From positions 1,577,001-1,641,000 of the forward strand of contig NZ_BSDR01000001.1 of NCBI RefSeq assembly GCF_027925305.1: a stretch of 64,000 bases of DNA. Direction: 5' to 3'. Below the pieces are notes generated by a model. That model did no database searches and was not told the DNA's origin. It saw only the letters and a list, made by a program, of their open reading frames with translations. A program made the position numbers and the translations under genes. This stretch comes from Desulforhabdus amnigena (GTDB taxonomy: Bacteria; Desulfobacterota; Syntrophobacteria; Syntrophobacterales; Syntrophobacteraceae). This document shows, piece after piece, positions 18,369 through 36,276 of this stretch (position 1 is the stretch's first letter; every line of letters starts with the position of its first letter).

Positions 18369-19577
18369 CTATTTTCCCTGTGAGTTGTAGAGTCTTTCGC
18401 CTTTTCTTTTCCTGTCAAAACAGTAAACTTCCATTCCTGGAACAATGACCCTGACTGTCGGAATTCCTACGTCCGACCTGGTCAGATCGACAACGATCAC
18501 CTTGTTCAATCCTCTTTCTCTCAGTTTCCTCAATATGATCTGTATATCCTGAAGGACGTCTTCGCTGTATTCCGATTTTATTTCGCCAAGATATTTTTTC
18601 TCGTGAGCATAGAAACGAGGATCGGCATCATATGACTCCCGGTAATAGTGGGAAGCGGTCTCCTGTAATCCCTTGATCCCGTATTTCTGAATGAAAAGAG
18701 CCCGGGTTGTCGTCATTTCCAGCAAGGCGCGGGCCATGGCAACCCGGGGGTCCAAATGAGCGCCGAAACCGTCGATTGGTATCATGTTTGAGTGAACCAG
18801 GTCTTCAGAGAAGGCAGCAATAACAGGAACTCCGATATCGGATGTGATGTCTTTGGCCGTCACCTGAATCTCGGCCTTTTCAAATTTCTCTATTAAATCA
18901 ATGATAAATTGATGACCGGGGTGATCATCCACTACAAGGGCGTTGTCCATTTCGTGGTTGAATTTGGCTATACTCCAGGCATCTCTTTCTATTATTTCGG
19001 TAAGCCCGTGAAAAATTGCCTCTTCCATGGTATTGCCCGAGGCAAGTCCGTTGGTATGCGTGTCGATTAAGTTTTCAGTTTCTATATGAAATGGATGATA
19101 CACCGAACAGGCCGGCACCAGGATGTCTTCTTCATTCACGATATCGTATCCCCAGACCCAGTATAAGTCCTTGTTCGCACTGAAGTTCGTGAACCGGGGT
19201 AATATGAGTTCGCCAGGATCCAGTACATTGTATTTGGATCGCAGGTTTTGGTAGGGTCCTTGTACGAGTCTTTCCAGGTACTCACTTCTGAATTCGGAAG
19301 AATATCTTTCAATCGATTCCATCAGCAAGGATACCTGTGCCTGCGTTTTTGAAACTCCTTTACCGGTATGACTGGTCCTGGAATTGTCGGGCCTCAACCG
19401 CTCACAGGTGAAAACCGGAATTCCGATGCGATCCAAATTGGTTGACTCCTGAAAAGAACTCATCCCTAGAATCTCTTTCATTCTATCTATGAATCGAAGG
19501 GTTGAATCCGGCGTCCTGGAGCGGTGCGTTTCCAGGACATAGACTTTAGGGCATTTGTGAAGGGTTAGAGCCGGCAC
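18369..19577 (-). CDS. YcaO-domain protein, thioamide/azoline-forming type
   Basis: 402 residues covering a whole YcaO domain. YcaO enzymes use ATP to activate a peptide amide for cyclodehydration or thioamidation. The ATP/Mg motifs are present: SLLMESIERYSSEF (about 107), TEIIERDAW (about 197) and ARALLEMTTTRALF (about 280). The end (VRVIVPGMEVYCFDR) is the stand-alone form found in methanogenesis marker 1-like proteins, without the C-terminal PxPxP of azoline synthetases. No precursor peptide is recognised nearby and this is not a methanogen segment, so the target is unknown. Confidence 0.88.
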   Translation of the reverse strand: MPALTLHKCPKVYVLETHRSRTPDSTLRFIDRMKEILGMSSFQESTNLDRIGIPVFTCERLRPDNSRTSHTGKGVSKTQAQVSLLMESIERYSSEFRSEYLERLVQGPYQNLRSKYNVLDPGELILPRFTNFSANKDLYWVWGYDIVNEEDILVPACSVYHPFHIETENLIDTHTNGLASGNTMEEAIFHGLTEIIERDAWSIAKFNHEMDNALVVDDHPGHQFIIDLIEKFEKAEIQVTAKDITSDIGVPVIAAFSEDLVHSNMIPIDGFGAHLDPRVAMARALLEMTTTRALFIQKYGIKGLQETASHYYRESYDADPRFYAHEKKYLGEIKSEYSEDVLQDIQIILRKLRERGLNKVIVVDLTRSDVGIPTVRVIVPGMEVYCFDRKRKGERLYNSQGK

Positions 19578-19818: not shown

Positions 19819-20289
19819 ATGAGTCTGACAGCACGAGATGTTATGGATACCCGGTATCGAACGCTACAGCCGCAGACCCCTATTGCAGAAGCAATAGATA
19901 TTTTTGAGAAAGCGAGTGAGGAGCGAGGGCAGCGGGTATTCGGGATGATGGTAACCGACGAAGCAGGGCGATTGGTAGGCATGCTTTCCATGTACGATAT
20001 TCTTCTTCTCATGCGCCCCAAGCATATTCACATCTGGGGGGAAATGAAAGACATCGACGTCAGCGGATTCATAAGAGAAGCCTGTGAACGGGCCAAACCG
20101 ATCCTCGTCGGGGACATCATGACCACCGAAGTGGTCACCATAGAACCCGACACACACCTCATGCTCATCGTGGATATCATGATCAAAAAACATATCCGCC
20201 GTCTCCCCGTCATCGATAACGGAAAGGTCGTAGGAATTGTTTATATTTCAACCGTTTTTCATCATCTCATGAAGCAGATGAAGCGTTGA
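19819..20289 (+). CDS. Paired CBS-domain protein
   Basis: 156 residues forming one Bateman module: CBS 1 (about 5-65, ARDVMDTRYRTLQPQTPIAEAI ending VGMLSMYDIL is the full span) and CBS 2 (about 92-152, VGDIMTTEVVTIEPDT to VGIVYIS). CBS pairs bind adenosine nucleotides and report energy state. No catalytic domain. A ribosome binding site GAGGAG precedes ATG. The next gene, 25 bases on, is another CBS protein, so they probably act together. Confidence 0.88.
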   Translation: MSLTARDVMDTRYRTLQPQTPIAEAIDIFEKASEERGQRVFGMMVTDEAGRLVGMLSMYDILLLMRPKHIHIWGEMKDIDVSGFIREACERAKPILVGDIMTTEVVTIEPDTHLMLIVDIMIKKHIRRLPVIDNGKVVGIVYISTVFHHLMKQMKR

Positions 20290-20314
20290 ACACGAGACAG
20301 TTTGAGTGTTTCCC

Positions 20315-21217
20315 ATGCAAGCCACTGATCGCAAGAATGTTTTAAGTCATTTGAAAGTCCGGGAGGCCATGCGCAAGCTTGCCGTTCACGTGCCTCGTGG
20401 CGCCCCTTTGGAACGCGCCGCCCGATTCACTATCAAATATAAAGTCAACGCCATTCTCGTGACATCGGAAAATCTCGAACCCTTAGGAGTCGTTTCCAAG
20501 ACGGATCTCATGGGAGCCTATTATGCGGAACTTCCCATTGAAACTCCCGTGGAAGCCATCATGATAGGTCCTCCCCTCTTCTGCCGCGTGGACGATTCTC
20601 TGGAATCCGCCCTCGAATCCATGCGAACCAATAGAATCCACCGGCTGTTCGTTCTGGGAGACGAATCCGACCAGGCGGTCGGCGTGCTCGCGTACCCGGA
20701 CATTGTGGGCTTGCTCTACAGGTATTGTCACCAATGCGAGAGAAGCATCATCCGATCCCGAGGCCCCGATTCGGACCTGAGCTTTGCAGACCGCTTCAGG
20801 GTCTCTGAAGTCATGACTCCGTCGGTGCATGCGCAGAGGGAGAACGAAACCCTGCTGGAAGTGATGGAGAGCTTGTCGGCGCATCGGCTTGGAGCCGTCC
20901 TCATCAAGGGGGGAAACGACCTTCCGGTGGGAGTGCTTTCCAAGACCGATCTCATCATGGCCTACAAGCATGCGATCCCCACCAGTGCGGAAGCACGAAC
21001 CATCATGCGCTCGCCCGTCATGACCTGCGATCATGACGATCCATTGGTCCTGGCCATTCAAAAGATGATCTTTTCAGACATCTACCGTTTGTTTGTCCAC
21101 AGGAACCATCCGGAAAACATCGTGGGAGTCATCTCCCTTACAGACGCTGCGAGAATCCGTTCAGGATCCTGCCGCGCCTGCATGAGCAGCCGCATCCTGA
21201 TCGATACCGAATCCTGA
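20315..21217 (+). CDS. Four-CBS-domain protein
   Basis: About 300 residues with two Bateman modules: CBS repeats starting near 14 (VREAMRKLAVHVPRG), 83 (PVEAIMIGPPLF), 168 (VSEVMTPSVHAQRE) and 233 (ARTIMRSPVMT). Each ends with the usual GV-S-TD-type motif. It follows the smaller CBS gene on the same strand. A GTG three codons earlier (20306) is an alternative start. Likely a cytoplasmic nucleotide sensor; the controlled process is unknown. Confidence 0.85.
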   Translation: MQATDRKNVLSHLKVREAMRKLAVHVPRGAPLERAARFTIKYKVNAILVTSENLEPLGVVSKTDLMGAYYAELPIETPVEAIMIGPPLFCRVDDSLESALESMRTNRIHRLFVLGDESDQAVGVLAYPDIVGLLYRYCHQCERSIIRSRGPDSDLSFADRFRVSEVMTPSVHAQRENETLLEVMESLSAHRLGAVLIKGGNDLPVGVLSKTDLIMAYKHAIPTSAEARTIMRSPVMTCDHDDPLVLAIQKMIFSDIYRLFVHRNHPENIVGVISLTDAARIRSGSCRACMSSRILIDTES

Positions 21218-21261: not shown

Positions 21262-22230
21262 TCAAACCAGCAGTTCAAGGTCTTCCAACATCTGACGGTC
21301 CTGATCCCGATCACGTCCCGCGACCGTCAGGAGCGGTCCAGCCATGATTCCCGTAGCCCCGGCGTAGAAAACCATGGACTGCAGGTCCCTCAAATGCACC
21401 CGCCCCGCACAGACCTTGACTTCCGCTTTGGGGTTCATCATGCGAAACATGGCGATGCTTCGAAGCATGTCCATGGGTTTCATGACAGTCTGCTCTTCGA
21501 GCTTTGTACCCGGAATGGGGATCAGGAAATTGAGAGGAATGGAATCCACTTCTTCCCCGGCCAGAAAGGATGCAAACTCCACCCGCTGATCCAGGGTTTC
21601 ACCCAGCCCCAGGATGCCGCCGCAGCAGACTTCCATGCCCACTTCCTTCGCTGTCCGAACCGTTTCCACCCGCATGGAATAACTGTGCGTGGAGCAGATG
21701 CTCGGGAAAAAGCTTTCCGATGTCTCCAGGTTGTGGTGAAAACGTTTGAATCCGGCATTCTTGAGAATTCGGAGCCGTTCCTTGTCCAGGCATCCCAGGG
21801 AGGCGCACCAGGAGACGCGAGGATTCGTATGGCTTTTGGGAGCCTCGCAGATCTGGAGAACCTCCGCATCTTTCAGAGCCTTCCCGCTGGCAACCACTCC
21901 AAAATGGTCGATGGGAAGTTTGGATGCAGCCTGGTAGGTGCTCACCAGTTCCTCTGTGCTTGCCAGGGGAAAGACTTTCGCCTGAGTCCTGTGGTGAGCC
22001 GATTGAGCACAAAAGGCGCAGTCTTCTGAACAGCCGCCGCTCTTGGCATTCATGATGGAACACAAATGAATACGGTTTCCGAAATATCGCTTTCGAAGCT
22101 GAGTGGCGCATGCGAGAATTTCGGGAATTTCTCCGGCATCACTTTTCAAAATCTCCAAAGCGGTATCCCGGGAAACAGCCCTTCCTTCTTCCGCCGCGTG
22201 CCGCATATCCTTCAGATGGATTTCTTTCAT
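21262..22230 (-). CDS. bioB: Biotin synthase
   Basis: 322 residues. A radical SAM enzyme that inserts sulfur into dethiobiotin. The C-x3-C-x2-C cluster motif is in [13 protein letters not shown] (about residues 64-71). Other family motifs are [10 protein letters not shown], the HHNLETS segment and [11 protein letters not shown]. The substrate arginine region (VCAGRVHL) is also present. It is downstream of bioD on the same strand, 89 bases away across a half copy of the CACGGAG repeat, so it is probably in a bioD-bioB transcript. Confidence 0.96.
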
Positions 22231-22319: not shown

Positions 22320-23021
22320 TCATGAAAACGCCAACCTTTCAATCTCGCGCAAGACTTCCTGGACTGCATTCTTCGCCCCCGGGTCACACTCCATATGGGG
22401 GAGCGGCCCCAGGACGGGAACGGAGGCCAAATCCTGCAATACCCTGGGATTGCTCCAGTAACTGGCATCATGCTCGCAGGATTCATTTTCATTGAGGAGC
22501 ACCCCAATGACGCGAATCCCTCTGGAAAGAGCCGACTCCACGGTGAGAAGAGAATGGTTCACGGTCCCAAGGCCTGCCCGTGCGACGATGAGAAGGGGAA
22601 GCTTTAGATCCCGGACGAGATCCGCGTAGAGACAGGAATGGGAGAGGGGCACCAGCAATCCCCCCGCCCCTTCCACGAGCACCACATCCGAGGCCTCGGC
22701 GATATTCCGGTACTTTTCCTTGATGTGTTCAAGATCGATGGTGATGCCCGCCTCCCGTGCCGCCTCGGCCGGAGCCAGCGGCCGGGGAAGAGCATAGGGG
22801 CAAATCGTATCCAGAGGCATATGCGAACCGGCCGCAACTTTCAGCCGGAGTGCATCCTTCGGCAGCCATTGCCCTTCGACCTCCTCGCAGTCGCTTTCCG
22901 CCGGCTTCATCACCCCGACTTTCATGTAATCCTTCAGATGAGACGCCAAAAGGCAGGTCACAAAGGTTTTCCCCACCCCCGTATCGGTTCCCGTAACGAA
23001 AAGCCCCTTTTGTTGCCCCAT
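22320..23021 (-). CDS. bioD: Dethiobiotin synthetase
   Basis: 233 residues from ATG at 23021, preceded by GGGAG. BioD closes the ureido ring of 7,8-diaminopelargonic acid with CO2 and ATP. The P-loop GTDTGVGKTFVT is at residues 8-19, the substrate lysine lies in MKPAES, and VEGAGGLLVPL is the second conserved motif (about 117). An earlier in-frame start (23069) would add 16 residues before the family N-terminus. First gene leftward from the divergent bio control region. Confidence 0.95.
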   Translation of the reverse strand: MGQQKGLFVTGTDTGVGKTFVTCLLASHLKDYMKVGVMKPAESDCEEVEGQWLPKDALRLKVAAGSHMPLDTICPYALPRPLAPAEAAREAGITIDLEHIKEKYRNIAEASDVVLVEGAGGLLVPLSHSCLYADLVRDLKLPLLIVARAGLGTVNHSLLTVESALSRGIRVIGVLLNENESCEHDASYWSNPRVLQDLASVPVLGPLPHMECDPGAKNAVQEVLREIERLAFS

Positions 23022-23081
23022 CTTCCCGCTCCCGTTGTCAGGTATCAATCCTTGTGCTCGAAACAACAACTTTCGAAAGGC

Positions 23082-23115: not shown

Positions 23116-23148
23116 TGGTTAACCAGTTGAGCACAATTGGGTTGACGA
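23116..23148. promoter_or_regulatory. Candidate BirA operator between bioD and bioA
   Basis: TGGTTAACC, 15 bases, GGTTGACGA. The BirA consensus as I know it is WTGTMAACC-N14-16-GGTTKACAW; the left arm matches 7 of 9 and the right arm 8 of 9, and the spacer length is right. The site lies in the divergent bioD/bioA control region beside the bioD -35 box, and its right arm overlaps a possible rightward -35 (TTGACG, 23142-23147). Confidence 0.65.
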
Positions 23149-23193: not shown

Positions 23194-24543
23194 ATGAATG
23201 TCGAACGGCTTCTCCAGCTGGACGCCGACCATGTGTGGCATCCGTGCACTCAAATGAAAGATCACGAGGAACTTCCCCCCATTCCCATTGAACGGGGCGA
23301 CGGAGTCTACCTCCAGGATAAGAACGGCAAATGTTATATCGACGGCGTTTCCTCCTGGTGGGTGAATCTCCTGGGGCACAATCATCCCCGCCTGAACACC
23401 GCGCTCATCGAACAGAGCCGAAAGATTGCTCACCATATTTTTGCAAACTTCACGAATGAACCGGCCGTCATGCTTTCGGCCAAACTCGCGGCCGTCACGC
23501 CGGGCAATCTCTCCAAGGTGTTTTTCACGGACAACGGATCTTCGGCCGTGGAAGCGGCTCTGAAAATGTCTTTCCAATACTGGCAGCAGTGCGGCCATCC
23601 AGGAAAGACGAAATTCCTTTCCCTCACAGGGGCGTATCACGGCGAAACCATCGGGGCACTGAGCGTCGGAGGCTGCGACCTTTACCGGCAGATCTATCAG
23701 CCCATTCTTCTTCAAGGATTTCAGGTCCAGGGGCCCGATTGCTACCGCTGTGCCGAAGGGAAACACCGGGATACCTGCCAGGCCGAATGTTTCGCTCACG
23801 TGGAAGCCATTGTGCGGGAACATCACGAATCCATTGCGGGGATCATTCTGGAACCGCTGGTGCAAGGAGCCGCCGGCATGCGCATCTATTCCCCCCGCTA
23901 CCTGCAAAAGCTCCGCTCCCTTTGCGACACGTATAAAATCCATTACATAGCGGACGAAATCGCTGTTGGATTCGGACGCACGGGGAAGATGTTCGCCAAC
24001 GACCATGCCCGGGTAGCCCCGGACATCATGTGCCTTTCCAAGGGCATCACGGGAGGCTATCTCCCTCTTGCCGTGGTCGTTACTCATGACGAGATTTACC
24101 GCGCTTTTTACGATGAATACACAAGTCTCAAAGCCTTTCTCCATTCCCACAGCTACACCGGCAATCCCCTCGCCTGCGCCGTTGCCGTGGAAGTGTTGAC
24201 CATTTTCGAGGAAGAAAAGATCCTCGAAGAGGTGCAGCCCAAAATCGACCAACTGGCCTCCTTCAAGGAACGGTTCGAAGCCCTCCCCTGCGTGGGGGAA
24301 TTCCGGCAACTGGGGATGATCGCAGCCGTGGAACTGGTCAAGGACAGGGAAACCAGAGAAGGCTTTCCCTGGGAAGAACGCACAGGGTATCGGGTCTTCC
24401 AGGAGGCCCTGAAAGCAGGGGCTTTGCTGCGCCCACTGGGAAATGTGGTCTATTTTTTCCCGCCTCTCACGATCAAACCCAACGAACTGGAGACTCTCGC
24501 AGACATCGCCTGCGAATCTATTGGAAAGGTTCTCGGGAAATAG
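23194..24543 (+). CDS. bioA: Adenosylmethionine-8-amino-7-oxononanoate aminotransferase
   Basis: 449 residues, a PLP-dependent class III aminotransferase that converts 8-amino-7-oxononanoate to 7,8-diaminopelargonate. DADHVWHPCTQMKDHE at the N-terminus and SSWWVNLLGHNHPRLN are BioA signatures; the PLP lysine is K283 in CLSKGITGG, with DEIAVGFGRTG before it. The SAM-using form is likely because the N-terminal W-H-P-Y/C-T motif is present. It opens the rightward bio cluster; a heptad array and a CACGGAG repeat separate it from the following operon. Confidence 0.95.
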   Translation: MNVERLLQLDADHVWHPCTQMKDHEELPPIPIERGDGVYLQDKNGKCYIDGVSSWWVNLLGHNHPRLNTALIEQSRKIAHHIFANFTNEPAVMLSAKLAAVTPGNLSKVFFTDNGSSAVEAALKMSFQYWQQCGHPGKTKFLSLTGAYHGETIGALSVGGCDLYRQIYQPILLQGFQVQGPDCYRCAEGKHRDTCQAECFAHVEAIVREHHESIAGIILEPLVQGAAGMRIYSPRYLQKLRSLCDTYKIHYIADEIAVGFGRTGKMFANDHARVAPDIMCLSKGITGGYLPLAVVVTHDEIYRAFYDEYTSLKAFLHSHSYTGNPLACAVAVEVLTIFEEEKILEEVQPKIDQLASFKERFEALPCVGEFRQLGMIAAVELVKDRETREGFPWEERTGYRVFQEALKAGALLRPLGNVVYFFPPLTIKPNELETLADIACESIGKVLGK

Positions 24544-24617
24544 GCTCATGGCTGATGGCTCATGGCTGATGGCTCATGGCTGATGGGTGATGGGTGATGG
24601 CTCATGGCTGATGGGTG
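24544..24617. repeat. Heptanucleotide array after bioA
   Basis: Ten or so 7-base units, alternately GCTCATG and GCTGATG, with GGTGATG variants, beginning directly at the bioA stop codon. Same unit family as the arrays at 3822-4158 and 45566-45815. Confidence 0.85.
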
Positions 24618-24639: not shown

Positions 24640-24750
24640 TAATACCCGTTATTCACCACAGAGGCACAGAGGGCACGGAGAAGATTTTGGAATTTTTATG
24701 GGATTCCTCCGTGATCTCTGTGCCTCCGTGGTGAATGGGGATTTCAAGAG
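24640..24750. repeat. CACGGAG palindromic repeat, copy 4
   Basis: CACCACAGAGGCACAGAGGGCACGGAGAAG, a spacer with GGAATTTTTATGGGATTCC (itself a hairpin), then CTCCGTGATCTCTGTGCCTCCGTGGTG. A well-paired hairpin. It belongs with copy 58409-58508, which shares the GAAGATTT spacer and the GGGGATTTCA end, as a sub-type. Confidence 0.85.
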
Positions 24751-24819
24751 CGGCTCACTCCCTTAAAGGGCTCGTGTCTGAAGTTGCGCATGTATTCAAA
24801 AGGTTGGAAAATCGGGAAC

Positions 24820-25158
24820 ATGAATGAAATATACCCCCAAGTGAACGAATGTTTCCACTTCGATCCGTCGGACCCCTTATTTGAAGACCACTTTCCCGGC
24901 CGGCCCGTGATTCCGGGTTCTCTGGTGCTCGATTGCTTTCAGAAAGCCATCCGTGACAGGCTCATGCCTCAAGAAAAGCCGCTCCTGGTCCTTGCAGGAA
25001 TCCGCAACGCGCGTTTCATCCGTTTTGGTCGCCCGGGCTGGGTGGAAGTGGAAATCTCTCATATGGGCGTAGACGATGACCGCGTCATCTTTTCCTGCCT
25101 GGCCCGGCAGGATGGGCAAACGCTCTCCTCCGCCCTGCTGCAGTACGGACGGTCATGA
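24820..25158 (+). CDS. FabZ-like hotdog dehydratase of the bio-fab operon
   Basis: 112 residues. DHFPGRPVIPGSLVLD (about 24-39) is the FabZ/FabA-type hotdog motif with the catalytic histidine of 3-hydroxyacyl-ACP dehydratases. Slightly short against the usual 140-150 residues: the C-terminal strand region is trimmed. I take ATG at 24820 because it places the first strand correctly; upstream ATG/TTG add residues with no family match. It overlaps the next gene by four bases (ATGA). Likely dehydrates the 3-hydroxy intermediate in a dedicated chain-building cycle. Confidence 0.75.
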   Translation: MNEIYPQVNECFHFDPSDPLFEDHFPGRPVIPGSLVLDCFQKAIRDRLMPQEKPLLVLAGIRNARFIRFGRPGWVEVEISHMGVDDDRVIFSCLARQDGQTLSSALLQYGRS

Positions 25159-25883
25159 TTTCCCTGCACCCGAAAATCCAGCGTGCTCTCATCACCGGTG
25201 GAAGCCGTGGAATCGGACTCGCCATTGCCCGGCGTCTCATGGATCAGGGGGTGGAAGTCTATTACGCATCGAGGCAGCCCTCGGCTTTTGAACATTCACT
25301 GCTCCATCATCTTGCCGCTGATTTTTCCAATCCCCGGGAAAGCATGGGTGCCATCAGCGAATCTTTCCAGGGAATGGAGCGGGTGCCGGATGTCCTCGTT
25401 TGCGCAGCGGGAACGCTTCACGAAGCTCTTGTCCTCCGCCAGGAGGATGCGTCGATGGAGGAACAGCTGCGGGTCAACATGACTTTCCACATGCACCTCA
25501 TCCGCTGGATCGTCGCCCCCATGCTGCTGCGACGGTTCGGGCGCATCGTGGGCATCTCTTCCACCGCAGCCCGCTTCCCTGCTCCAGGGCAAGCAGTCTA
25601 CGCATCGGCCAAAGCGGGGCTCGAAGCCTTCCTGAAGGGCTGTGCCGTTGAATTTGCGCGCAAAGGCATCACCTGCAACTGGGTTACCCCCGGCTACGTT
25701 CGAACGGATTTTTCCTCCGAGTTTCTGGCACAAAAGGACCTGAAGAAGGTCGTACCTGTGGGGCGTGCGGGAACATCGGAGGAAGTTGCCGAAGCGGTGA
25801 TGCTCTTCCTGGGAGAATATAGCGATTACCTGACCGGTTCGCAGATTGTCGTGGATGGAGGGCTTTCCCTCGCAGTGAAATAA
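25155..25883 (+). CDS. FabG-like 3-oxoacyl-ACP reductase of the bio-fab operon
   Basis: 242 residues, a classical short-chain dehydrogenase. TGGSRGIGLAIARRL (about 14-28) binds NAD(P)H; the catalytic set is GISSTAARF (serine), YASAKAG (tyrosine and lysine, about 152-156); the end VVDGGLSL is typical of FabG. It would reduce 3-oxoacyl-ACP. A four-base overlap links it to the hotdog gene. The organism will have a housekeeping fabG elsewhere, so this looks like a pathway-specific copy. Confidence 0.85.
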   Translation: MISLHPKIQRALITGGSRGIGLAIARRLMDQGVEVYYASRQPSAFEHSLLHHLAADFSNPRESMGAISESFQGMERVPDVLVCAAGTLHEALVLRQEDASMEEQLRVNMTFHMHLIRWIVAPMLLRRFGRIVGISSTAARFPAPGQAVYASAKAGLEAFLKGCAVEFARKGITCNWVTPGYVRTDFSSEFLAQKDLKKVVPVGRAGTSEEVAEAVMLFLGEYSDYLTGSQIVVDGGLSLAVK

Positions 25884-25960
25884 ACAGGATACCAATCGAT
25901 ACAACAACGCATCAAGGCGTATGGATGCGCAACCCCTGTGAACCATTTACCGGAGGATTT

Positions 25961-26377
25961 ATGTCTGAAGCCGTTTTGAAGACTTTGCAAAAGACCATTT
26001 CAGAGCTGATCAACTGCGACGAGAATGAAGTGACTCCAACGACTCGCCTGGTGGAGGACCTGGGATTTGAATCCATCGATTTTCTGGAACTCTCCATGAC
26101 ACTATCCCAGGAATACAAACTGGATATCGACGAAAAAACCCTGTTTCTTTCCGAATTCCGCCCCATGATGAGCAGTGCGAAGGGCGGTCGACTCCTGGAT
26201 ATCCTCACCGCTGCATATCCGCACCTGCCTCGGGAGGAACTCCGGAGGTTGATGGAAGAAGCACCCAGGGGCAATGTGCTCAAGGTCGGCCACCTGGTGA
26301 GATATCTGGACTTCAAAACCGGAAATACCAGCCAGGGAAGTACTACAGCTCATACATTCGAGACAAACCGACCATGA
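25961..26377 (+). CDS. Dedicated acyl carrier protein of the bio-fab operon
   Basis: 138 residues from ATG at 25961, with GGAGG ribosome binding site. Residues 1-80 are an acyl carrier domain; S38 in DLGFESIDFLEL is the expected phosphopantetheine site (E-S-I in place of the common D-S-L). The domain runs on into an unusual ~55-residue tail (REELRRLMEEAPRGNVLKVGHL), longer than in housekeeping ACP (about 78 residues). Four-base overlap with the next gene. Probably holds the growing dicarboxylate chain. Confidence 0.85.
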   Translation: MSEAVLKTLQKTISELINCDENEVTPTTRLVEDLGFESIDFLELSMTLSQEYKLDIDEKTLFLSEFRPMMSSAKGGRLLDILTAAYPHLPREELRRLMEEAPRGNVLKVGHLVRYLDFKTGNTSQGSTTAHTFETNRP

Positions 26378-27030
26378 ATGCCAAAACAACTCCGAGCGAA
26401 GATATGCGCACTTCAACGCATCTGGAATATCTCATTTGCAGCCGCTACTCCGAACGCTTTTTCACGGGAGAACCGCTCCCCGCGGGCAGCGTTCAGCGCA
26501 TCGTTGAAACCGCTTTGCACGCTCCCTCCCCGTCGGGACGCAATCCGTTCTATTTCGTCATCGCCGAAGAGCGGAAAGCCCTGGAAGAGCTGGCGCAGGA
26601 ACTCAGGTCGTCCTTTCTTGAACTTCACGTGAAATCATGTGGAGATGCATCTAGAAACAAAGTGATCTCCTACTACGAACGTTACAGCATTTTTCTGGAG
26701 AACGCCGCCGCCCTCCTGCTCTGCTACACCAACGACAGGAAAAGCGCGCTGGACGCCCTTTTTTCCGATGCCAAAAGTGAAGCCGCAAACCTCATTTCTC
26801 TCGGAACCGTCCTTCAGAATATCGGACTCCTTTGCACGGAATCAAACATCGGCCATTGCATCCTTTCGGCTCCAGTGGAATTGTTTCCGGAGCTTTTTGA
26901 CCACATCTTTAGAGCACCACCGCATCTCACTTTGCGCTGTCTCGTCGCTCTGGGACGCGCGGCAGGGAAAGGACGGAAGAAACCGAAAGCCATTCCCGCA
27001 CAGCGTTACGTGAAGGTATTGCAACGATGA
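26374..27030 (+). CDS. Nitroreductase-family flavoprotein of the bio-fab operon
   Basis: 218 residues of the FMN-dependent nitroreductase fold. The FMN phosphate contacts are in SRYSERFF (about 21-28) and APSPSGRNPFYFVIAEE (about 50-66); the second half has LISLGTVLQNIGLL and the closing ALGRAAGKGRKKP. It overlaps both neighbours by four bases, so it is made with the ACP and the ketoacyl synthase. In this setting I infer an enoyl-ACP reductase role, since none of the known enoyl reductases is in the operon; nothing in the sequence proves it. Confidence 0.8.
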   Translation: MNAKTTPSEDMRTSTHLEYLICSRYSERFFTGEPLPAGSVQRIVETALHAPSPSGRNPFYFVIAEERKALEELAQELRSSFLELHVKSCGDASRNKVISYYERYSIFLENAAALLLCYTNDRKSALDALFSDAKSEAANLISLGTVLQNIGLLCTESNIGHCILSAPVELFPELFDHIFRAPPHLTLRCLVALGRAAGKGRKKPKAIPAQRYVKVLQR

Positions 27031-28259
27031 AGCGGCGAGTGGTCATTGTGTCGGCGGGAGTCCTCGCTCCGGTGGGTTCCACCTGGGAGGAGTTTCAACG
27101 GAACATTTTTCTTGAGAGGGACTGGTTCGAACCCTTGGCAAAAGAACTGCCCTACCCTGCGGGTGCCAGAGTGGACGATGCGGCCCTCGATGCCTTTTAC
27201 CGGCAGAAGGGACGTGCCTTCAAGTACCGGCGCTACTACAACCGGGCAACGGACATGGCGGTCGTGGCCGCTTTCGAATGCCTGAAGAACCTGCAACCCG
27301 CATCCATCGACCCTCAGGAAATGAACCTTTTCTGGGGAGCGGGGCCCAACTTCGATTTAAGCGCGATTCCCGAAGCAACCTTTTCAGTGGAACCCGCCGA
27401 CCAGCCAAAGAGCCATCATGGAGTTTCCGCAGCCTGGATGCTCCTCTATCTTCCCAATATGACGGCGTCCGCCATTTCATGCGCCCTTGGAATCCGGGGG
27501 GAAACCCTGACTTACCTCACGGCCTGCGCCGCCGCTTCCCATGCTATCGGCGAAGCCTTCCTCAAGATCCGCAACGGGGACCTGGACTGCGTCCTCTGCG
27601 GAGGCAGCGACAGCCGCCTCAACCGGGGCGGACTGCAGGCTTACAAAATGCTCGGAGCCCTCTCCCCTTCCCCCGAACCCCGTGTTCTGCCCTTCTGTAA
27701 AGAGCGGGATGGGTTCGTGCCGGGCGAGGGTGCAGCTGCTTTCCTCCTCATGGATGCGGATACGGCTCAAACCCTGAACACTCCCATCCTGGCCGAACTG
27801 GTGGGTTATGGGTCCAGCTCCGACGGTTTTCGGCTGACCGACCCGGAACCCGGCGGACTCGGCATGGAAACGGCCATGAAAAAAGCGCTCCGAATGGCTC
27901 GAATGGCCCCTGGAGAAATCGACCTGATCGATGCCCATGGCACGGGAACCCTCAAAAACGATGCCGCTGAAGCGGCGGCCATACGCCGGGTTTTTCCGTT
28001 CCCCGTGCCCGTGACTTCCAATAAATCCCAGTTCGGCCATCTTTCGGCAGCGGCGGGAGCGCTCGAACTGGCTGCCTGCCTTGCCATGCTCCGGCGTGGA
28101 GAAGCGACCCCCACGGTAAACACGGTTGGGAAAACCGTTGAAGAAGGCATTGAACTGGTACGGAAAAACCGCTCCATGCCGCTTCGGACCATCCTCTCCA
28201 ATTCTTTCGGTTTCGGCGGTGAGAACTGCGCACTCGTCGTCAAGAGGTGGGAACCATGA
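27027..28259 (+). CDS. 3-oxoacyl-ACP synthase (KAS I/II type) of the bio-fab operon
   Basis: 410 residues, thiolase fold. The condensing triad is visible: C167 in LTACAAASHA, H304 in DAHGTGTLKND and H338 in FGHLSAAAG, as in FabB/FabF. The first 70 residues are more divergent than in FabF (EEFQRNIFLERDWFEP), which may reflect an unusual primer. It would extend a malonyl-derived starter by two-carbon units. Coupled to the nitroreductase and the second hotdog protein by ATGA overlaps. Confidence 0.88.
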   Translation: MKRRVVIVSAGVLAPVGSTWEEFQRNIFLERDWFEPLAKELPYPAGARVDDAALDAFYRQKGRAFKYRRYYNRATDMAVVAAFECLKNLQPASIDPQEMNLFWGAGPNFDLSAIPEATFSVEPADQPKSHHGVSAAWMLLYLPNMTASAISCALGIRGETLTYLTACAAASHAIGEAFLKIRNGDLDCVLCGGSDSRLNRGGLQAYKMLGALSPSPEPRVLPFCKERDGFVPGEGAAAFLLMDADTAQTLNTPILAELVGYGSSSDGFRLTDPEPGGLGMETAMKKALRMARMAPGEIDLIDAHGTGTLKNDAAEAAAIRRVFPFPVPVTSNKSQFGHLSAAAGALELAACLAMLRRGEATPTVNTVGKTVEEGIELVRKNRSMPLRTILSNSFGFGGENCALVVKRWEP

Positions 28260-28753
28260 GCCGGCCCGGCCCCTTTCGATTTGTGGACCGAATCCTGGAA
28301 TACGCATCCGAAGAGCGTATCGTCACCCTCACGGACCTGAGCTCCAGAAAAGATCTTTTGAACCGGTTCGGATTTTCCTCCCTGCTCCTGGAAATCGCAG
28401 CCCAGAGCTGCGGTCTCATGAACCGCGCGCAACACCGGGGAACTCGGGATTCCTTCCTGGGAAAAGTCAGGCACATGGCCTTTCATGAACCCTTCTTCAC
28501 CGTCTCGCCCCTTTCGACGGTGCGGACTCTCGCCCGGCGGATTTCAGGCACACCCGATTTGACCCGCTACCAGGGAAAGGTCGAGTCTTTTAACGGCACT
28601 CTTCTCGCCGATTTCGATCTTCTGATCTGCACTGCCGAACTCGGCGGCCGGGATACGGACGGGCGGCGCCGGTACTGGCAGGACTACCTCGATCGGTTGG
28701 AGCAGCAGACTTTTCTGAACACCAACGGAGAAAGATTCCATGAAATCCATTGA
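28256..28753 (+). CDS. Second hotdog-type dehydratase-like protein of the bio-fab operon
   Basis: 165 residues from ATG at 28256 (overlap ATGA with the synthase). PFRFVDRILEYASEERIVTLTDLS is the FabZ/hotdog first strand, and SSLLLEIAAQSCGLM the long helix, but the H-F-x-G-x-P-x-x-P-G motif with the catalytic histidine is missing (RFGFSSLLLE is in its place). So it may be an inactive partner of the first hotdog protein, a thioesterase, or a chain-length control subunit. It overlaps bioF by 14 bases. Confidence 0.65.
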   Translation: MSRPGPFRFVDRILEYASEERIVTLTDLSSRKDLLNRFGFSSLLLEIAAQSCGLMNRAQHRGTRDSFLGKVRHMAFHEPFFTVSPLSTVRTLARRISGTPDLTRYQGKVESFNGTLLADFDLLICTAELGGRDTDGRRRYWQDYLDRLEQQTFLNTNGERFHEIH

Positions 28754-29927
28754 AGAACGAGCGCAAAAGCTTTGCCGTGACTTTCAGACCAAAGGCGTTT
28801 TCCGGCGCCTCCCCCCGGATGATGTCCATCTGCGCCTCAACCTGGCATCCAATGACTACCTGGGAATCGTCCGCAGGGGCCTGCTTCGGCCTTCCCTGAC
28901 AAAGCACGCTTCCCGGTGCGGAACCGGCGGGGGCAGTTCCCGCCTCGTCTTCGGCAATACCAGGGCACACCGCATCCTGGAAGAAAAACTCGCGGATCAT
29001 TTCGAATACGAAGCAGCCCTGGTCTTCACGTCCGGTTTCATGGCCAATTACGGCCTATGTTCGGCTCTCAGGGAACTGGCGGATGTGGTGCTCATTGACA
29101 AGCGAGTCCACGCCAGCGTCGTGGACGGACTCATGCAAAGCATGGGCGGAAAATGCGAGATCAAGAGCTTCAAACACAACGACGCAGAGCACTACCGGCA
29201 TCTGTCTGAGCGTTTCAAAGGCCGCGAAATGGCGACCATCACTGAATCCCTTTTCAGCATGACGGGGCATGTCTGCAATCGAGGAGTCATCGAAGAAGCG
29301 GGTCAAAGGGGGTTTCTGATCGTAGACGAAGCCCACTCCCTCGGAGCGGTCAAATCTCGAGGGAAAGCGATTTTCGGCAAAGCGGCCGGAGCCGACATCA
29401 CCATCGGGACCTTTGGCAAGGCCTTCGGGTGCGTCGGCGGATTCATTCTCTGTTCCGCTCCGGTTCATACGTTTCTGGTCAACCGGTGCCGTTCATTCAT
29501 CTTCACGACGGCTCTGCCTGAAGTCTACGCGGCGGTGGGAACCGACGCCATCGATCTTGTGGCGGGAATGGACGAAGAGCGTGAAAAATTGGCGGCTCTC
29601 GCGAACTATTTGCGCACGCAGCTGACATCCTCGGGCTTTCGCGTCTCGGGAGACGCACACATCCTGGCCATCTACTGCAAGGGAGCCGAGGAAGCCGTGG
29701 AAATCAGCAGACGCCTCGGGGAAAGAGGCATCGCCCTCTATGCCGTGCGCGCCCCCACCGTTCCCCCGAAGGAAATCCTGCTGCGCGTCTCTCTAAATGG
29801 CACGCTGGATCGAGCCGACCTGGATTTCCTTCTGGAAGAACTCCAGAAACTGAAAAGGGAGCATCCGCACCTTTTTGAGGAGGACGACTGCTCCCCCCTA
29901 TTACGCCAACTGCCCCTCTCTTTTTAA
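28740..29927 (+). CDS. bioF: 8-amino-7-oxononanoate synthase
   Basis: 395 residues of the alpha-oxoamine synthase family. LNLASNDYLGI (about 34) and GTGGGSSRLVFG (about 61) are family motifs, DEAHSLGAV (about 196) binds PLP, and K227 in GTFGKAFG forms the internal aldimine. BioF joins pimeloyl-ACP or pimeloyl-CoA with L-alanine. Here it is the last gene of the operon, coming directly after the ketoacyl synthase and hotdog genes, which supports pimeloyl-ACP as the product of those genes. Glycine C-acetyltransferase is the only serious alternative. Confidence 0.9.
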   Translation: MKSIEERAQKLCRDFQTKGVFRRLPPDDVHLRLNLASNDYLGIVRRGLLRPSLTKHASRCGTGGGSSRLVFGNTRAHRILEEKLADHFEYEAALVFTSGFMANYGLCSALRELADVVLIDKRVHASVVDGLMQSMGGKCEIKSFKHNDAEHYRHLSERFKGREMATITESLFSMTGHVCNRGVIEEAGQRGFLIVDEAHSLGAVKSRGKAIFGKAAGADITIGTFGKAFGCVGGFILCSAPVHTFLVNRCRSFIFTTALPEVYAAVGTDAIDLVAGMDEEREKLAALANYLRTQLTSSGFRVSGDAHILAIYCKGAEEAVEISRRLGERGIALYAVRAPTVPPKEILLRVSLNGTLDRADLDFLLEELQKLKREHPHLFEEDDCSPLLRQLPLSF

Positions 29928-30731: not shown

Positions 30732-30983
30732 ATGAACGCAATAACCTACTCACAAGCCCGAGGTAACCTTGCTAAAACCATGGACAAGGTCTGCGATGAC
30801 CATTCCCCGATCATCATTACACGCAAAAGCCAGCGTTCGGTCGTGATGATCTCCCTTGAAGACTACCAAGCCCTTGAAGAGACCGCTTATCTTCTAAGAA
30901 GCCCGAAAAACGCGAGAAGGCTTCTGGAGTCCATTGCTGAGCTTGAATCCGGTGGTGGTACTGAGAGGGAGTTGATCGAGTGA
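30732..30983 (+). CDS. yefM: Antitoxin YefM (Phd/YefM family)
   Basis: 83 residues. ITYSQARGNLAKTMDKVCDDH and IITRKSQRSVVMISLEDYQALEETAYLL are the DNA-binding and dimer core of Phd/YefM antitoxins. The C-terminal tail should wrap the toxin. AAGGAG precedes the ATG. It overlaps the toxin by four bases, the usual translational coupling. It runs opposite to the cassette genes and has its own operator. Confidence 0.93.
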   Translation: MNAITYSQARGNLAKTMDKVCDDHSPIIITRKSQRSVVMISLEDYQALEETAYLLRSPKNARRLLESIAELESGGGTERELIE

Positions 30984-31234
30984 GGATCATTTTCTCTGAA
31001 CATGCCTGGGAAGATTACCTCTACTGGCAACGGACTGATCGAAAGATTCTCGAGCGCATAAACAAGCTGATCAAGGAAATACAGCACTCACCCTTTGAGG
31101 GGACCGGCAAGCCTGAGCCCCTCAGGCATGGTCTATCCGGATATTGGTCCCGACGCGTAACCGATGAACACCGGATTGTCTACAAAATCGATCAGGACTC
31201 CCTCCATCTTGCACAGCTTAGATACCACTATTAG
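30980..31234 (+). CDS. yoeB: Toxin YoeB (ribosome-dependent mRNA interferase)
   Basis: 84 residues from GTG. RelE fold. FSEHAWEDYLYW, the LSGYWSRRVTDEHRIVY segment with catalytic arginine, and the final RYHY with histidine 83 are the YoeB signature. It cleaves mRNA in the ribosomal A site and is neutralised by YefM. The module lies between two attC-like sites, a common place for such pairs in chromosomal integrons. Confidence 0.94.
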   Translation: MRIIFSEHAWEDYLYWQRTDRKILERINKLIKEIQHSPFEGTGKPEPLRHGLSGYWSRRVTDEHRIVYKIDQDSLHLAQLRYHY

Positions 31235-31826: not shown

Positions 31827-32831
31827 CTATCCATCAGTCGTTACAAGCTTGGGGGGATTGATCCAAGCCGCTGTCGGTAAAGGCTTTGGAGTCGGCACCT
31901 TGTTGACGAATCTTTCTGGGTGATCCTGGTATGCGCGGATCAAGACCCGTTCTCTGGCTTGTAAGACTTCAGGGGCATTTCCAAAGTGAACCATCTCGGG
32001 GGTGAGCAGGCTGATCCCCGTATGACGGTGCTCCTGGTTGTACCAGGGAAAGAAATCCTGGCAGAAACTGCGTGCATCCTGGATGGCTCCAAAGCATTCG
32101 GGAAAATCAGGTCTATACTTGAGCGTTTTGAACTGGGATTCGGAGTAAGGGTTATCATCACTGGTATAGGGTCTGCTGTGAGTCTTGGTGATCCCAAGGT
32201 CTGCGAGCAGAAAGGCCACGGGTTTCGATTTCATTGAAGATCCTCTGTCTGCATGAATCGTCAACTGTCCCGGAACTATCCCCTGTTTGGAACAGGTTTC
32301 CTGAATGAAGCGTTTTGCGAGCTGCGCCGATTCATGGGTTGCCACCATCCATCCGACGACGTATCGGCTGAAGATGTCAATAATCACATAGAGATAGAAG
32401 TAGGTCCATTTGCCGGGACCAAGAAGCTTCGTGATGTCCCAGGATCAGACCTGGTTGGGTCCCGTTGCCAGAAGCTCGGGTTTTTCATAAACAGGATGGC
32501 GCAACTGGTTTCTGCGTTCTTTCACCTCCTTTTGATCTTCAAGGATCCGGTACATGGTGCGGATGGAGCAGTGGTATTTTCCCTCATCGAGCAAGGTCGC
32601 ATAGACTTCATGAGGAGCCTTGTCGACAAAGCGCTCCGAGTGCAGGATATCGAGCACCGCCTGCTTTTCTTCTGGTTGCAGAGCACGCGGCGAAGGAGAT
32701 TTCCCGCCGCACTCCGCAGCCTTCATTTTGCTCCCGGCTCTCCGCCGATACAGGCTGGCCCTCGGAACCACGAGGGCTTCACAGGCACGGCGGGTGCCTA
32801 TTTCAAGGGCGAGCGCTTCTGTGGCATCCAT
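31827..32831 (-). pseudogene. IS3 orfB (DDE transposase), interrupted by one nonsense codon
   Basis: Two segments in the same frame (32831-32445 and 32444-31827) are separated only by TGA at 32447-32445, where relatives have tryptophan (GPNQVWSWDITK would be expected). Beyond it the integrase core is intact: D in SWDITK, D in TIHADRGSSM and E in YSESQFKTLKY, and the expected HRHTGISLLTPEMVH. About 334 codons in total. The start overlaps the orfA stop (TGATG). Confidence 0.88.
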
Positions 32832-33322
32832 CAGTCTTTCCCGCTCTGCACCTGGGTTTCGAGTGTTATGCCCAATATCTGAGAGATTTTTTTTTGAGCA
32901 TCGATGATGAGCTCCGCCTGCTTGAGGCGTTTTTGAAGCCGTTCGTTTTCCTGGCGCAGTCTGCCCATCTCGATCACCAGAGGATCGGGTTCTTTGGCTT
33001 TGGGTCCCCGTTTTCTTGGCTCCAAAGCCTCCAGGGTGCCCGCATTCCGTTGCCGTCGCCAGGTGGCGAGGTTTGAGTGATACAATCCTTCGCGGCGCAG
33101 CAAGGCACCAAGACTACCGGGGGTCTTACAAGCGTCGGCTAGACCAAGGATATTCAGTTTGTATTCGGCCGTGAACTTACGGCGTGTCGGATTCTCCAAC
33201 ACTTCGGGATCCGGCCGCCCGAGTGCCCTTACAGCTCCATCGGGCTCGCTCTGCTCCCCCGATTCCGCCTCCAGGGCACTCACCTTGACCAACCGCTTTT
33301 CCATATTTGAACCTTTTTCCAT
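32831..33322 (-). CDS. IS3 orfA
   Basis: 163 residues. RRKFTAEYKLNILGLADACKTPGSLGALLRREGLYHSNLATWRRQ is a helix-turn-helix of the IS3 orfA type (given here as a span at about residues 47-91; key residues KFTAEYK, GALLRREGL, LATWRR). A leucine-rich coiled coil (MGRLRQENERLQKRLKQAEL) follows. It would be fused to orfB by frameshifting, but a stop in orfB blocks a full product. Confidence 0.85.
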   Translation of the reverse strand: MEKGSNMEKRLVKVSALEAESGEQSEPDGAVRALGRPDPEVLENPTRRKFTAEYKLNILGLADACKTPGSLGALLRREGLYHSNLATWRRQRNAGTLEALEPRKRGPKAKEPDPLVIEMGRLRQENERLQKRLKQAELIIDAQKKISQILGITLETQVQSGKD

Positions 33323-35637: not shown

Positions 35638-36276
35638 GTCAAATACCTCCGGCAAAGCCGGAGGCTTGAAAATATGGACCGCTCAAAGCGGTTGTAAACC
35701 ATTGGCCACCTAAAGGTGGCGGCTACTTGAACATATGCAGTTGATCGAGTCTGCGATCCTCGGTTTCCTGCTTTTTGATATATTCGCGGATCATCTTCTC
35801 ATCTTTACCCACCGTGGACACGAAGTATCCGCGCGCCCAGAAATTGTGGCCAGTGAAATTCTTCCTCTGACCAAGGAAGCTCCTTGCAATGTGGATGGCA
35901 CTTTTGCCCTTGATGAAACCCACCACTTGGGCAACGCTGTACTTGGGTGGAATGCTGATGAGCATGTGGACATGGTCCACCAGCAGATGACCTTCCACTA
36001 TCTTGCTCTCACGCTGCATCGCAAGCTCTCTGAATATCTGCCCCAAATGCTTTCGGAGCTCTTCATAGAGGGTCTTCCTTCGGTATTTGGGAATCCATAC
36101 CACATGGTACTTGCAGTCCCACGCCGTGTGGCTTAGGCTTTGGTATTCGTCCATACGAAAGCTTTCCTTTCTGTAAACTTTGAGCGGTTCACAGGAGGGA
36201 AGCTTTCGTATACTCCCGGAAATGTCAAACTCTGGGAGTCGCCCGGCAGAGCCGGGGGTTTACCCAAAATTAATTA
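35638..36276 (-). mobile_element. IS200/IS605-type insertion sequence, copy 2
   Basis: Same 639-base length and ends as the copy at 17191-17829, including the CCTCCGGCAAAGCCGGAGG and CCCGGCAGAGCCGGG hairpins. It sits within the integron region. Its right border touches the dispersed element at 36277. No target duplication is expected for this family. Confidence 0.9.
35723..36154 (-). CDS. tnpA: IS200-type Y1 transposase TnpA, copy 2
   Basis: 143 residues, identical to copy 1 apart from one residue near the end (M for K in RLDQLHMFK). The HVH metal motif and IREYIKKQ tyrosine are present. Intact. Confidence 0.95.
   Translation of the reverse strand: MDEYQSLSHTAWDCKYHVVWIPKYRRKTLYEELRKHLGQIFRELAMQRESKIVEGHLLVDHVHMLISIPPKYSVAQVVGFIKGKSAIHIARSFLGQRKNFTGHNFWARGYFVSTVGKDEKMIREYIKKQETEDRRLDQLHMFK

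Follow-up and report, generated by a model that had tools for sequence, protein, structure and literature searches.

We analysed a 64,000-nucleotide stretch of the Desulforhabdus amnigena genome (assembly GCF_027925305.1, contig NZ_BSDR01000001.1, positions 1,577,001 to 1,641,000, forward strand; hereafter the window), which carries a packed run of seven genes, most of them with fatty-acid-synthase-like products, beside the genes for biotin synthesis. All seven reading frames are open and lie on the forward strand from position 24820 to 29927. The first gene encodes hotdog 1 (24820..25158, with a possible earlier TTG start at 24784), a FabZ-like dehydratase subunit with the catalytic His, which matched the FabA-like family PF07977 with an E value of 8e-6. 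It is followed by the genes for a FabG-like 3-oxoacyl-acyl carrier protein (ACP) reductase of the short-chain dehydrogenase/reductase type (25155..25883; best model TIGR01830, 163 of 298 bits, below the cut-off), an apparently dedicated ACP with the PP-binding domain PF00550 (25925..26377, ATG at 25961), a nitroreductase-family flavoprotein that is a candidate enoyl-ACP reductase (26374..27030; PF00881, 64 bits) and a beta-ketoacyl-ACP synthase (KAS) of the KAS I/II type with the N- and C-terminal domains PF00109 and PF02801 (27027..28259). The last two genes encode hotdog 2, assigned from its predicted fold and residue pattern as a FabZ-fold subunit with the catalytic Glu and without the catalytic His (28247..28753, starting from GTG 28247 or ATG 28256), and BioF, 8-amino-7-oxononanoate synthase (28740..29927; best model TIGR00858, 283 of 426 bits, below the cut-off).

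A complete bioA gene for 7,8-diaminopelargonic acid aminotransferase (23194..24543, forward strand; TIGR00508, 572 bits over a cut-off of 405) lies 5' of the run. The bioD gene for dethiobiotin synthetase (22320..23069; TIGR00347, 172 bits over a cut-off of 83) and the bioB gene for biotin synthase (21262..22230; TIGR00433, 370 bits over a cut-off of 225) are divergent, on the reverse strand. Five junctions of the run are overlaps, namely 4 bases each for hotdog 1/fabG, acp/nitroreductase and nitroreductase/kas, 13 for kas/hotdog 2 and 14 for hotdog 2/bioF. The fabG and acp genes are separated by 41 bases, and bioA and hotdog 1 by 276 bases. The reading frames, spacings and family matches agree with the initial annotation, which had described seven packed genes of these identities after bioA and near bioD and bioB. 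No match to the locus was found in a plasmid collection.

Two hotdog proteins and the FabZ dyad

FabZ dehydratases use a His and a Glu located 14 residues on, and in the dimer the two meet from two chains. Among the hotdog 1 proteins of the clusters collected here, the catalytic His was found in 18/18, and the position His+14 was occupied by H in 5, E in 4, D in 2, R in 2, G in 2, and A, S and Q in 1 each, so that an acid is present in 6/18. Hotdog 1 of the D. amnigena window has Asp there. Hotdog 2, on the other hand, has the Glu in 23/23 proteins, within an E-x-x-A-Q motif, and a His 14 residues before it in 0/23. In these counts, four loci (L040, L045, L054 and L073) contribute no hotdog 1 because their contigs start past that point, and a broken cluster (L042, described below) was left out for the synthase and hotdog 2 and counted for hotdog 1. 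L045 gave a weak match to hotdog 1 away from its cluster and on the opposite strand, and this match was removed manually. As controls, FabZ proteins of relatives (20) and of E. coli were used, and His and Glu occurred together in all 21 that match the motif pattern; three further control loci missing the pattern were left out, with H and E visible in them by eye. The FabZ arrangement, a His and Glu dyad on a single chain, characterizes neither hotdog 1 nor hotdog 2.

Hotdog 2 also has an Arg at Glu+11 in 23/23 proteins, and this Arg was found in 0/21 of the FabZ controls, one of which has Lys. Numbered from ATG 28256, the two residues are Glu46 and Arg57, and they would be on the same helix face if the helix is regular. 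Hotdog 2 gave no Pfam or NCBIfam match at an E value of 0.001. A profile search against the PDB returned 11 matches at E≤1, all of them FabZ-type dehydratases (best E 0.0017). The model of hotdog 2 had a mean predicted local distance difference test (pLDDT) score of 75, with residues 1-8 and 154-165 below 50, and its PDB fold matches were FabZ structures at ranks 1-10 and included thioesterases from rank 11. The complementary residue losses of hotdog 1 and hotdog 2 argue for one composite active site, and the simplest reading of the sequences is that the two proteins form a heterodimeric dehydratase. The chains modelled were single ones (ACP and hotdog 2), and the heterodimer is a prediction.

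FabA has Asp at the position of the FabZ Glu. Hotdog 1 of D. amnigena, which has Asp there and is one of the six that retain an acid, may therefore form a working homodimer, if this species is taken alone. Hotdog 1 would then be a homodimeric dehydratase by itself, with hotdog 2 as a structural or thioesterase-like protein, as the thioesterases among its fold matches might suggest. We consider this unlikely, as the residue at His+14 is A, G, S, Q, H or R in 12 of the 18 hotdog 1 sequences while the hotdog 2 Glu is invariant, and as both the first ten fold matches and all the PDB profile matches of hotdog 2 are to FabZ.

For the heterodimer of hotdog 1 and hotdog 2, there are partial precedents. 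The ApeI/ApeP pair is described as a heterodimeric dehydratase with a single active site (PMC8041823); it belongs to an aryl polyene pathway, whereas the hotdog pair lies in a biotin cluster. The aryl polyene genes, wanted for their dyad, were absent from the one stretch of an E. coli record that was examined. Mycobacterial HadAB is likewise reported as a heterodimeric hotdog dehydratase with one active site, but according to the same source HadB bears both catalytic residues (PMC4491049), whereas here they are apparently split over two proteins.

Synthase, acyl carrier protein and FabG

The Cys-His-His catalytic triad of FabF/KAS II enzymes was intact in 23/23 cluster synthases, and the synthase of the window scored 262 of 494 bits against the fabF equivalog model, below the cut-off. 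Two positions distinguish these proteins. Arg197 is located at the position of Ala193 of E. coli FabF and Tyr206 at that of Phe202, and each was found in 23/23 cluster synthases, in 0/21 synthases from relatives and in 3/59 other synthases. Phe202 of E. coli FabF is described as a gating residue of the acyl pocket (PMC7138838). At the position of Phe133 of E. coli FabF, Trp was found in 21/23, with one Phe and one gap. The 59 comparison synthases are a mixture, mostly of planctomycete and Chloroflexi records, and therefore the 21 synthases from relatives served as an additional control; this set is also mixed, with 14/21 within the wider clade that contains E. coli FabF. Pro107 was considered as a counterpart of the FabF gating Ile108, but it was rejected: one alignment had Pro in 18/19 rows, another had a gap, and a later alignment placed other residues there. 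From the sequences, Arg197 and Tyr206 of the synthase and Arg57 of hotdog 2 are candidate binders of a free carboxylate.

In a tree that used 30 of the 59 comparison synthases, the cluster synthases formed one clade of 22 rows with support 100/99, apart from 52 other synthases. A partial synthase (L073) was left out of the tree and kept in the count of 23. The clade takes in the synthase of D. piger (L089); D. vulgaris itself was outside the tree set.

The ACP had been annotated initially as having an extended tail. The model and the alignment with E. coli AcpP place the additional residues elsewhere, in an internal helical insertion before the last helix. This insertion comprises about 35-45 residues and was present in 15/15 cluster ACPs aligned with AcpP, each of which has the attachment serine in the motif E-S-I-D. 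The ACP model (7 sequences) had a mean pLDDT of 86 and showed extra helices before the last helix. Its PDB fold search gave 360 matches at E≤10, none of them at an E value of 0.001, and the top ones were ACPs. The Ser-Tyr-Lys residues were found in 15/15 cluster FabG proteins, and a search of FabG for group-specific residues yielded conservative ones only. The D. amnigena genome also encodes a housekeeping FabZ over the cut-off and a second FabF-like synthase, and the operon is thus a separate set.

Operator, distribution and other pimelate routes

A BirA-like operator, to which no strand was assigned, is located at 23116..23148, between the divergent bioD and bioA genes. It reads TGGTTAACC-N15-GGTTGACGA, with half-sites 15 bases apart and one mismatch in 14 positions to the pattern GTMAACC-N15-GGTTKAC, which was derived from the published BirA consensus (PMC545781). 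This is the sole such match in the window, and shuffled sequences gave a mean of 0.03. The initial annotation was correct in the gene content of the locus but made no mention of this site. A site with two or fewer mismatches was found in 10/13 cluster promoters, in hand-chosen stretches of 60 to 561 bases without shuffle control; the stretches from L043, L046 (60 bases scanned) and L048 showed none at this threshold. The D. amnigena genome has one BirA over the cut-off, located away from the operon, and its reading frame has a helix-turn-helix-like N-terminus as judged by eye. Among the 13 cluster genomes, 12 have a BirA over the cut-off, one each. An operator and a BirA with a putative DNA-binding domain, which define membership in a BirA regulon, are thus both present at the sequence level, and the divergent operons would be repressed by BirA.

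This setting bears on whether the module makes another product, such as an octanoyl/lipoyl precursor or a special lipid, and merely lies beside biotin genes. Except for BioF, none of the operon proteins matches anything more specific than a generic fatty-acid or flavoprotein family, as would be expected in that case. However, BirA-like operators occur at most of the promoters scanned, bioF lies within the overlapping gene run, and the phenotypes reported for D. vulgaris are biotin-specific (PMC10102598). We therefore regard a product unrelated to biotin as very improbable.

A palindromic repeat some 100 bases long (24650-24750) occupies part of the 276 bases between bioA and hotdog 1. With 40 of 155 candidates scored, 52 matches were listed, some of them the inverted self-match, and the repeat occurs in the genome in no fewer than 40 copies of 77 bases or longer. 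It is closely preceded, at about 24545-24617, by a short tandem repeat that by eye is ATGGCTGATGGCTC-like. In a relative (L034), the gap between bioA and hotdog 1 is just a few bases.

At least 10 biotin clusters were recognized among the 80 loci listed in a genome scan (L043-L049, L054, L073 and L089), which is a sample and not a census. Their record titles name Desulfoluna, D. piger, Syntrophales, Desulfobacterales, Elusimicrobia (L048) and Cloacimonadota (L054). Close relatives were counted singly (L036-L038, L039-L041 and L043-L044), and the counts throughout are not of independent events. L048 and L054 would add to the phyla that PMC10102598 names in its text and figure S3 legend, but both come from metagenome bins, on contigs of only 9.1 and 7.1 kb. 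In one relative (G005), the cluster looks broken (L042, 2274-4555): the bioA frame is short, fabG is followed immediately by a fragment of the synthase gene, and acp, the nitroreductase gene, hotdog 2 and bioF were not found on the contig; either loss or an assembly fault would explain it. Because the same genes are found again beside bio genes in relatives, and because the synthases form one clade, the association of the seven genes goes beyond chance.

Of the other routes to pimelate, those of BioC and BioW were searched for. BioC gave 14 weak matches in the D. amnigena genome, with none over the cut-off (best 57.6 of 185 bits) and none at E≤1e-25. BioW gave no match at E≤0.001 in any of the 59 genomes of the relatives set, which includes D. 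amnigena, whereas 2/14 control genomes matched. The absence of bioC and bioW, noted initially for the window, thus holds genome-wide at these thresholds. In the relatives set, nine genomes have the synthase cluster (G000, G002, G003, G004, G006, G012, G014, G019 and G037). BioC at E≤1e-25 was found in 0/10 cluster genomes, with the broken cluster of G005 included, versus 8/49 others. Within one genus (g7, 11 genomes), 2 genomes have the cluster, 7 have BioC and none has both. Across 395 genomes drawn from the phylum, in which at most 10 candidates per genome for hotdog 2 and at most 6 for BioC were scored, hotdog 2 was found in 7 with at least 115 bits; the next match had 45.8 bits, and those that were read are ordinary FabZ. 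BioC at E≤1e-30 was found in 118 of these genomes and BioW at E≤1e-10 in 12, in each case in 0/7 of those with hotdog 2.

Outside the operon, a protein that by eye resembles the YcaO type (18369-19577, reverse strand) lies near two CBS-domain-like proteins (19819-21217). A putative YefM/YoeB-type toxin-antitoxin pair, also judged by eye, is located shortly 3' of the operon (30732-31234, forward strand). Further on, transposase-like genes were recognized by eye on the reverse strand at 31827-33322 and 35723-36154, an IS3-type group and an IS200-like one, so that mobile elements seem to be abundant to the right of the operon.

Proposed pathway and its relation to known systems

The operon quite probably encodes a type II fatty acid synthase devoted to biotin, which would assemble the seven-carbon pimeloyl chain on the operon's own ACP and supply it to BioF. 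In the proposed scheme, malonyl would be loaded on the operon ACP by the housekeeping FabD, and the synthase would take as primer a malonyl that keeps its carboxylate and condense it with a second malonyl. Reduction by FabG would be followed by dehydration by the putative heterodimer, with the His of hotdog 1 and the Glu of hotdog 2, and the nitroreductase, with flavin mononucleotide (FMN), would then reduce the double bond, yielding glutaryl-ACP. Another turn of the cycle would lead to pimeloyl-ACP, and BioF, BioA, BioD and BioB would then complete biotin. The free omega-carboxylate would be held by the invariant arginines of the synthase and hotdog 2, and therefore the BioC methyl-ester mask would be unneeded. 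Taken with all its particulars, the module would be a dicarboxylate-specific mini fatty acid synthase with an obligate heterodimeric dehydratase split between His and Glu subunits, Arg-lined pockets in the synthase and dehydratase, an ACP with a helical insertion, a nitroreductase-family enoyl-ACP reductase and no methyl-ester mask; this full description is put forward tentatively, with the chances for and against it close to balanced.

BioZ reportedly takes glutaryl as its primer. If the operon synthase likewise started from glutaryl, derived from lysine or aromatic degradation, a single elongation would give pimeloyl, and all the enzymes of the cycle would still be required. FabF-type enzymes, however, are primed by acyl-ACP. 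The precedent for such a one-cycle route is BioZ of alpha-proteobacteria (PMC7645780), which is described as a beta-ketoacyl-ACP synthase III type (PMC8024396), whereas the operon synthase is of the FabF type. Priming with glutaryl in place of malonyl thus appears rather improbable.

The assignment of the nitroreductase as the enoyl reductase fits a gap in the pathway but is unproven. Of the 18 clusters whose contig includes acp as well as kas, nine have a nitroreductase gene between them (the window, L034, L036, L037, L038, L043, L048, L169 and L170), and in L045 the end of one lies just before kas at the contig edge. In the D. amnigena genome, a query with E. coli FabI, made without a positive control, gave no match at E≤1e-15. 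Alternatively, the nitroreductase could be accessory and the enoyl reduction carried out by a housekeeping enoyl-ACP reductase, which is named as an alternative in the 2023 paper (PMC10102598) and would suit the nine clusters without the gene. On the other hand, the distantly related nitroreductase DVU1220 is reported to be required for biotin in D. vulgaris (PMC10102598), and the wider nitroreductase family includes CLA-ER, a protein of solved structure that bears the name enone reductase. An accessory role is possible, though we find it somewhat doubtful.

Several observations weigh against the proposal that the operon is a complete and dedicated pimeloyl synthase. The nitroreductase gene is missing in 9/18 clusters (L035, L039, L040, L041, L046, L047, L049, L089 and L172), and the enoyl-reductase role is therefore not universal unless another enzyme substitutes. 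Among the searched genomes whose cluster is without one, G037 has a relative of the nitroreductase elsewhere (75.5 bits), but the matches in G003, G004 and G012 were at most 40 bits, and with G005 all were at most 42 bits. In two loci, L044 (1-5268) and L171 (3695-8314), the synthase, hotdog 2 and bioF genes are together, and acp, fabG, hotdog 1 and the nitroreductase gene were not found in more than 4.5 kb upstream, where other genes lie (the remaining genome was not searched); the module is therefore not always one operon and may be split in these genomes. The acid retained in six hotdog 1 proteins, including that of D. amnigena, would be compatible with a working homodimer. The lack of BioC in the seven hotdog-2 genomes of the phylum is weak alone against a background of 118/395, with a probability of about 0.08 by chance as reckoned by hand. 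Finally, no biochemical study was found in the open-licence PMC literature, in which PMC10102598 was the only paper found with the D. vulgaris gene names.

In E. coli, a malonyl-derived chain from fatty acid synthesis is delivered to BioF through BioC-BioH, as proposed here. The E. coli route uses housekeeping enzymes behind a methyl ester (PMC10102598), whereas the D. amnigena operon has dedicated enzymes and its genome no BioC over the cut-off. The closest known system is that of Desulfovibrio. In 2004, an extended biotin operon of two Desulfovibrio species was predicted to replace bioC, bioH, bioG and bioW (PMC545781), and in 2023 transposon fitness data of D. vulgaris indicated that growth without biotin depends on the biotin cluster and on DVU1220, an unlinked nitroreductase (PMC10102598). 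Both papers bear out the statement in the initial annotation that fab-like genes occur in Desulfovibrio bio operons, and its view that the locus is a variant of a known, poorly characterised arrangement; they also support its suggestion that pimeloyl is built on the operon's own ACP and passed to BioF. As described, DVU2558-DVU2565 comprise bio genes with two FabZ-like proteins, FabG, ACP, KAS and BioF, without bioC and under predicted BirA control. The D. amnigena locus likewise has two FabZ-like proteins, FabG, ACP and KAS beside bioA, bioF, bioD and bioB, lacks bioC, and its synthase falls in the same clade as that of D. piger.

There are two differences from D. vulgaris. By the published description, DVU1220 is unlinked and distantly related, whereas the nitroreductase here lies inside the operon, as does the nitroreductase-like gene in the biotin clusters of Syntrophobacter fumaroxidans and Desulfobacter vibrioformis by the text of PMC10102598, which reports in-cluster nitroreductases in these two genera. 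In addition, the predicted BirA site of D. vulgaris lies between the operon and birA (PMC545781), while the operator-like site here is in the bioD-bioA interval and birA is located elsewhere in the genome. Biotin clusters are also reported in two further Desulfobacterota orders and in Desulfurispirillum (PMC10102598). The arrangement itself is therefore already known, and the D. amnigena operon is a further case.

The first half of biotin synthesis in many anaerobes was flagged in 2004 (PMC545781), and no biochemistry of it was found in the searches of the open-licence PMC literature. The text of PMC10102598 contains the conjecture that the active sites of these enzymes are less hydrophobic, and this is now tied to positions that can be mutated, namely Arg197 and Tyr206 of the synthase and Glu46 and Arg57 of hotdog 2. 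The residue patterns further imply that hotdog 1 should be tested jointly with hotdog 2 and not alone. The interest of the locus thus lies in the specific and testable predictions that it offers at the level of the enzymes.

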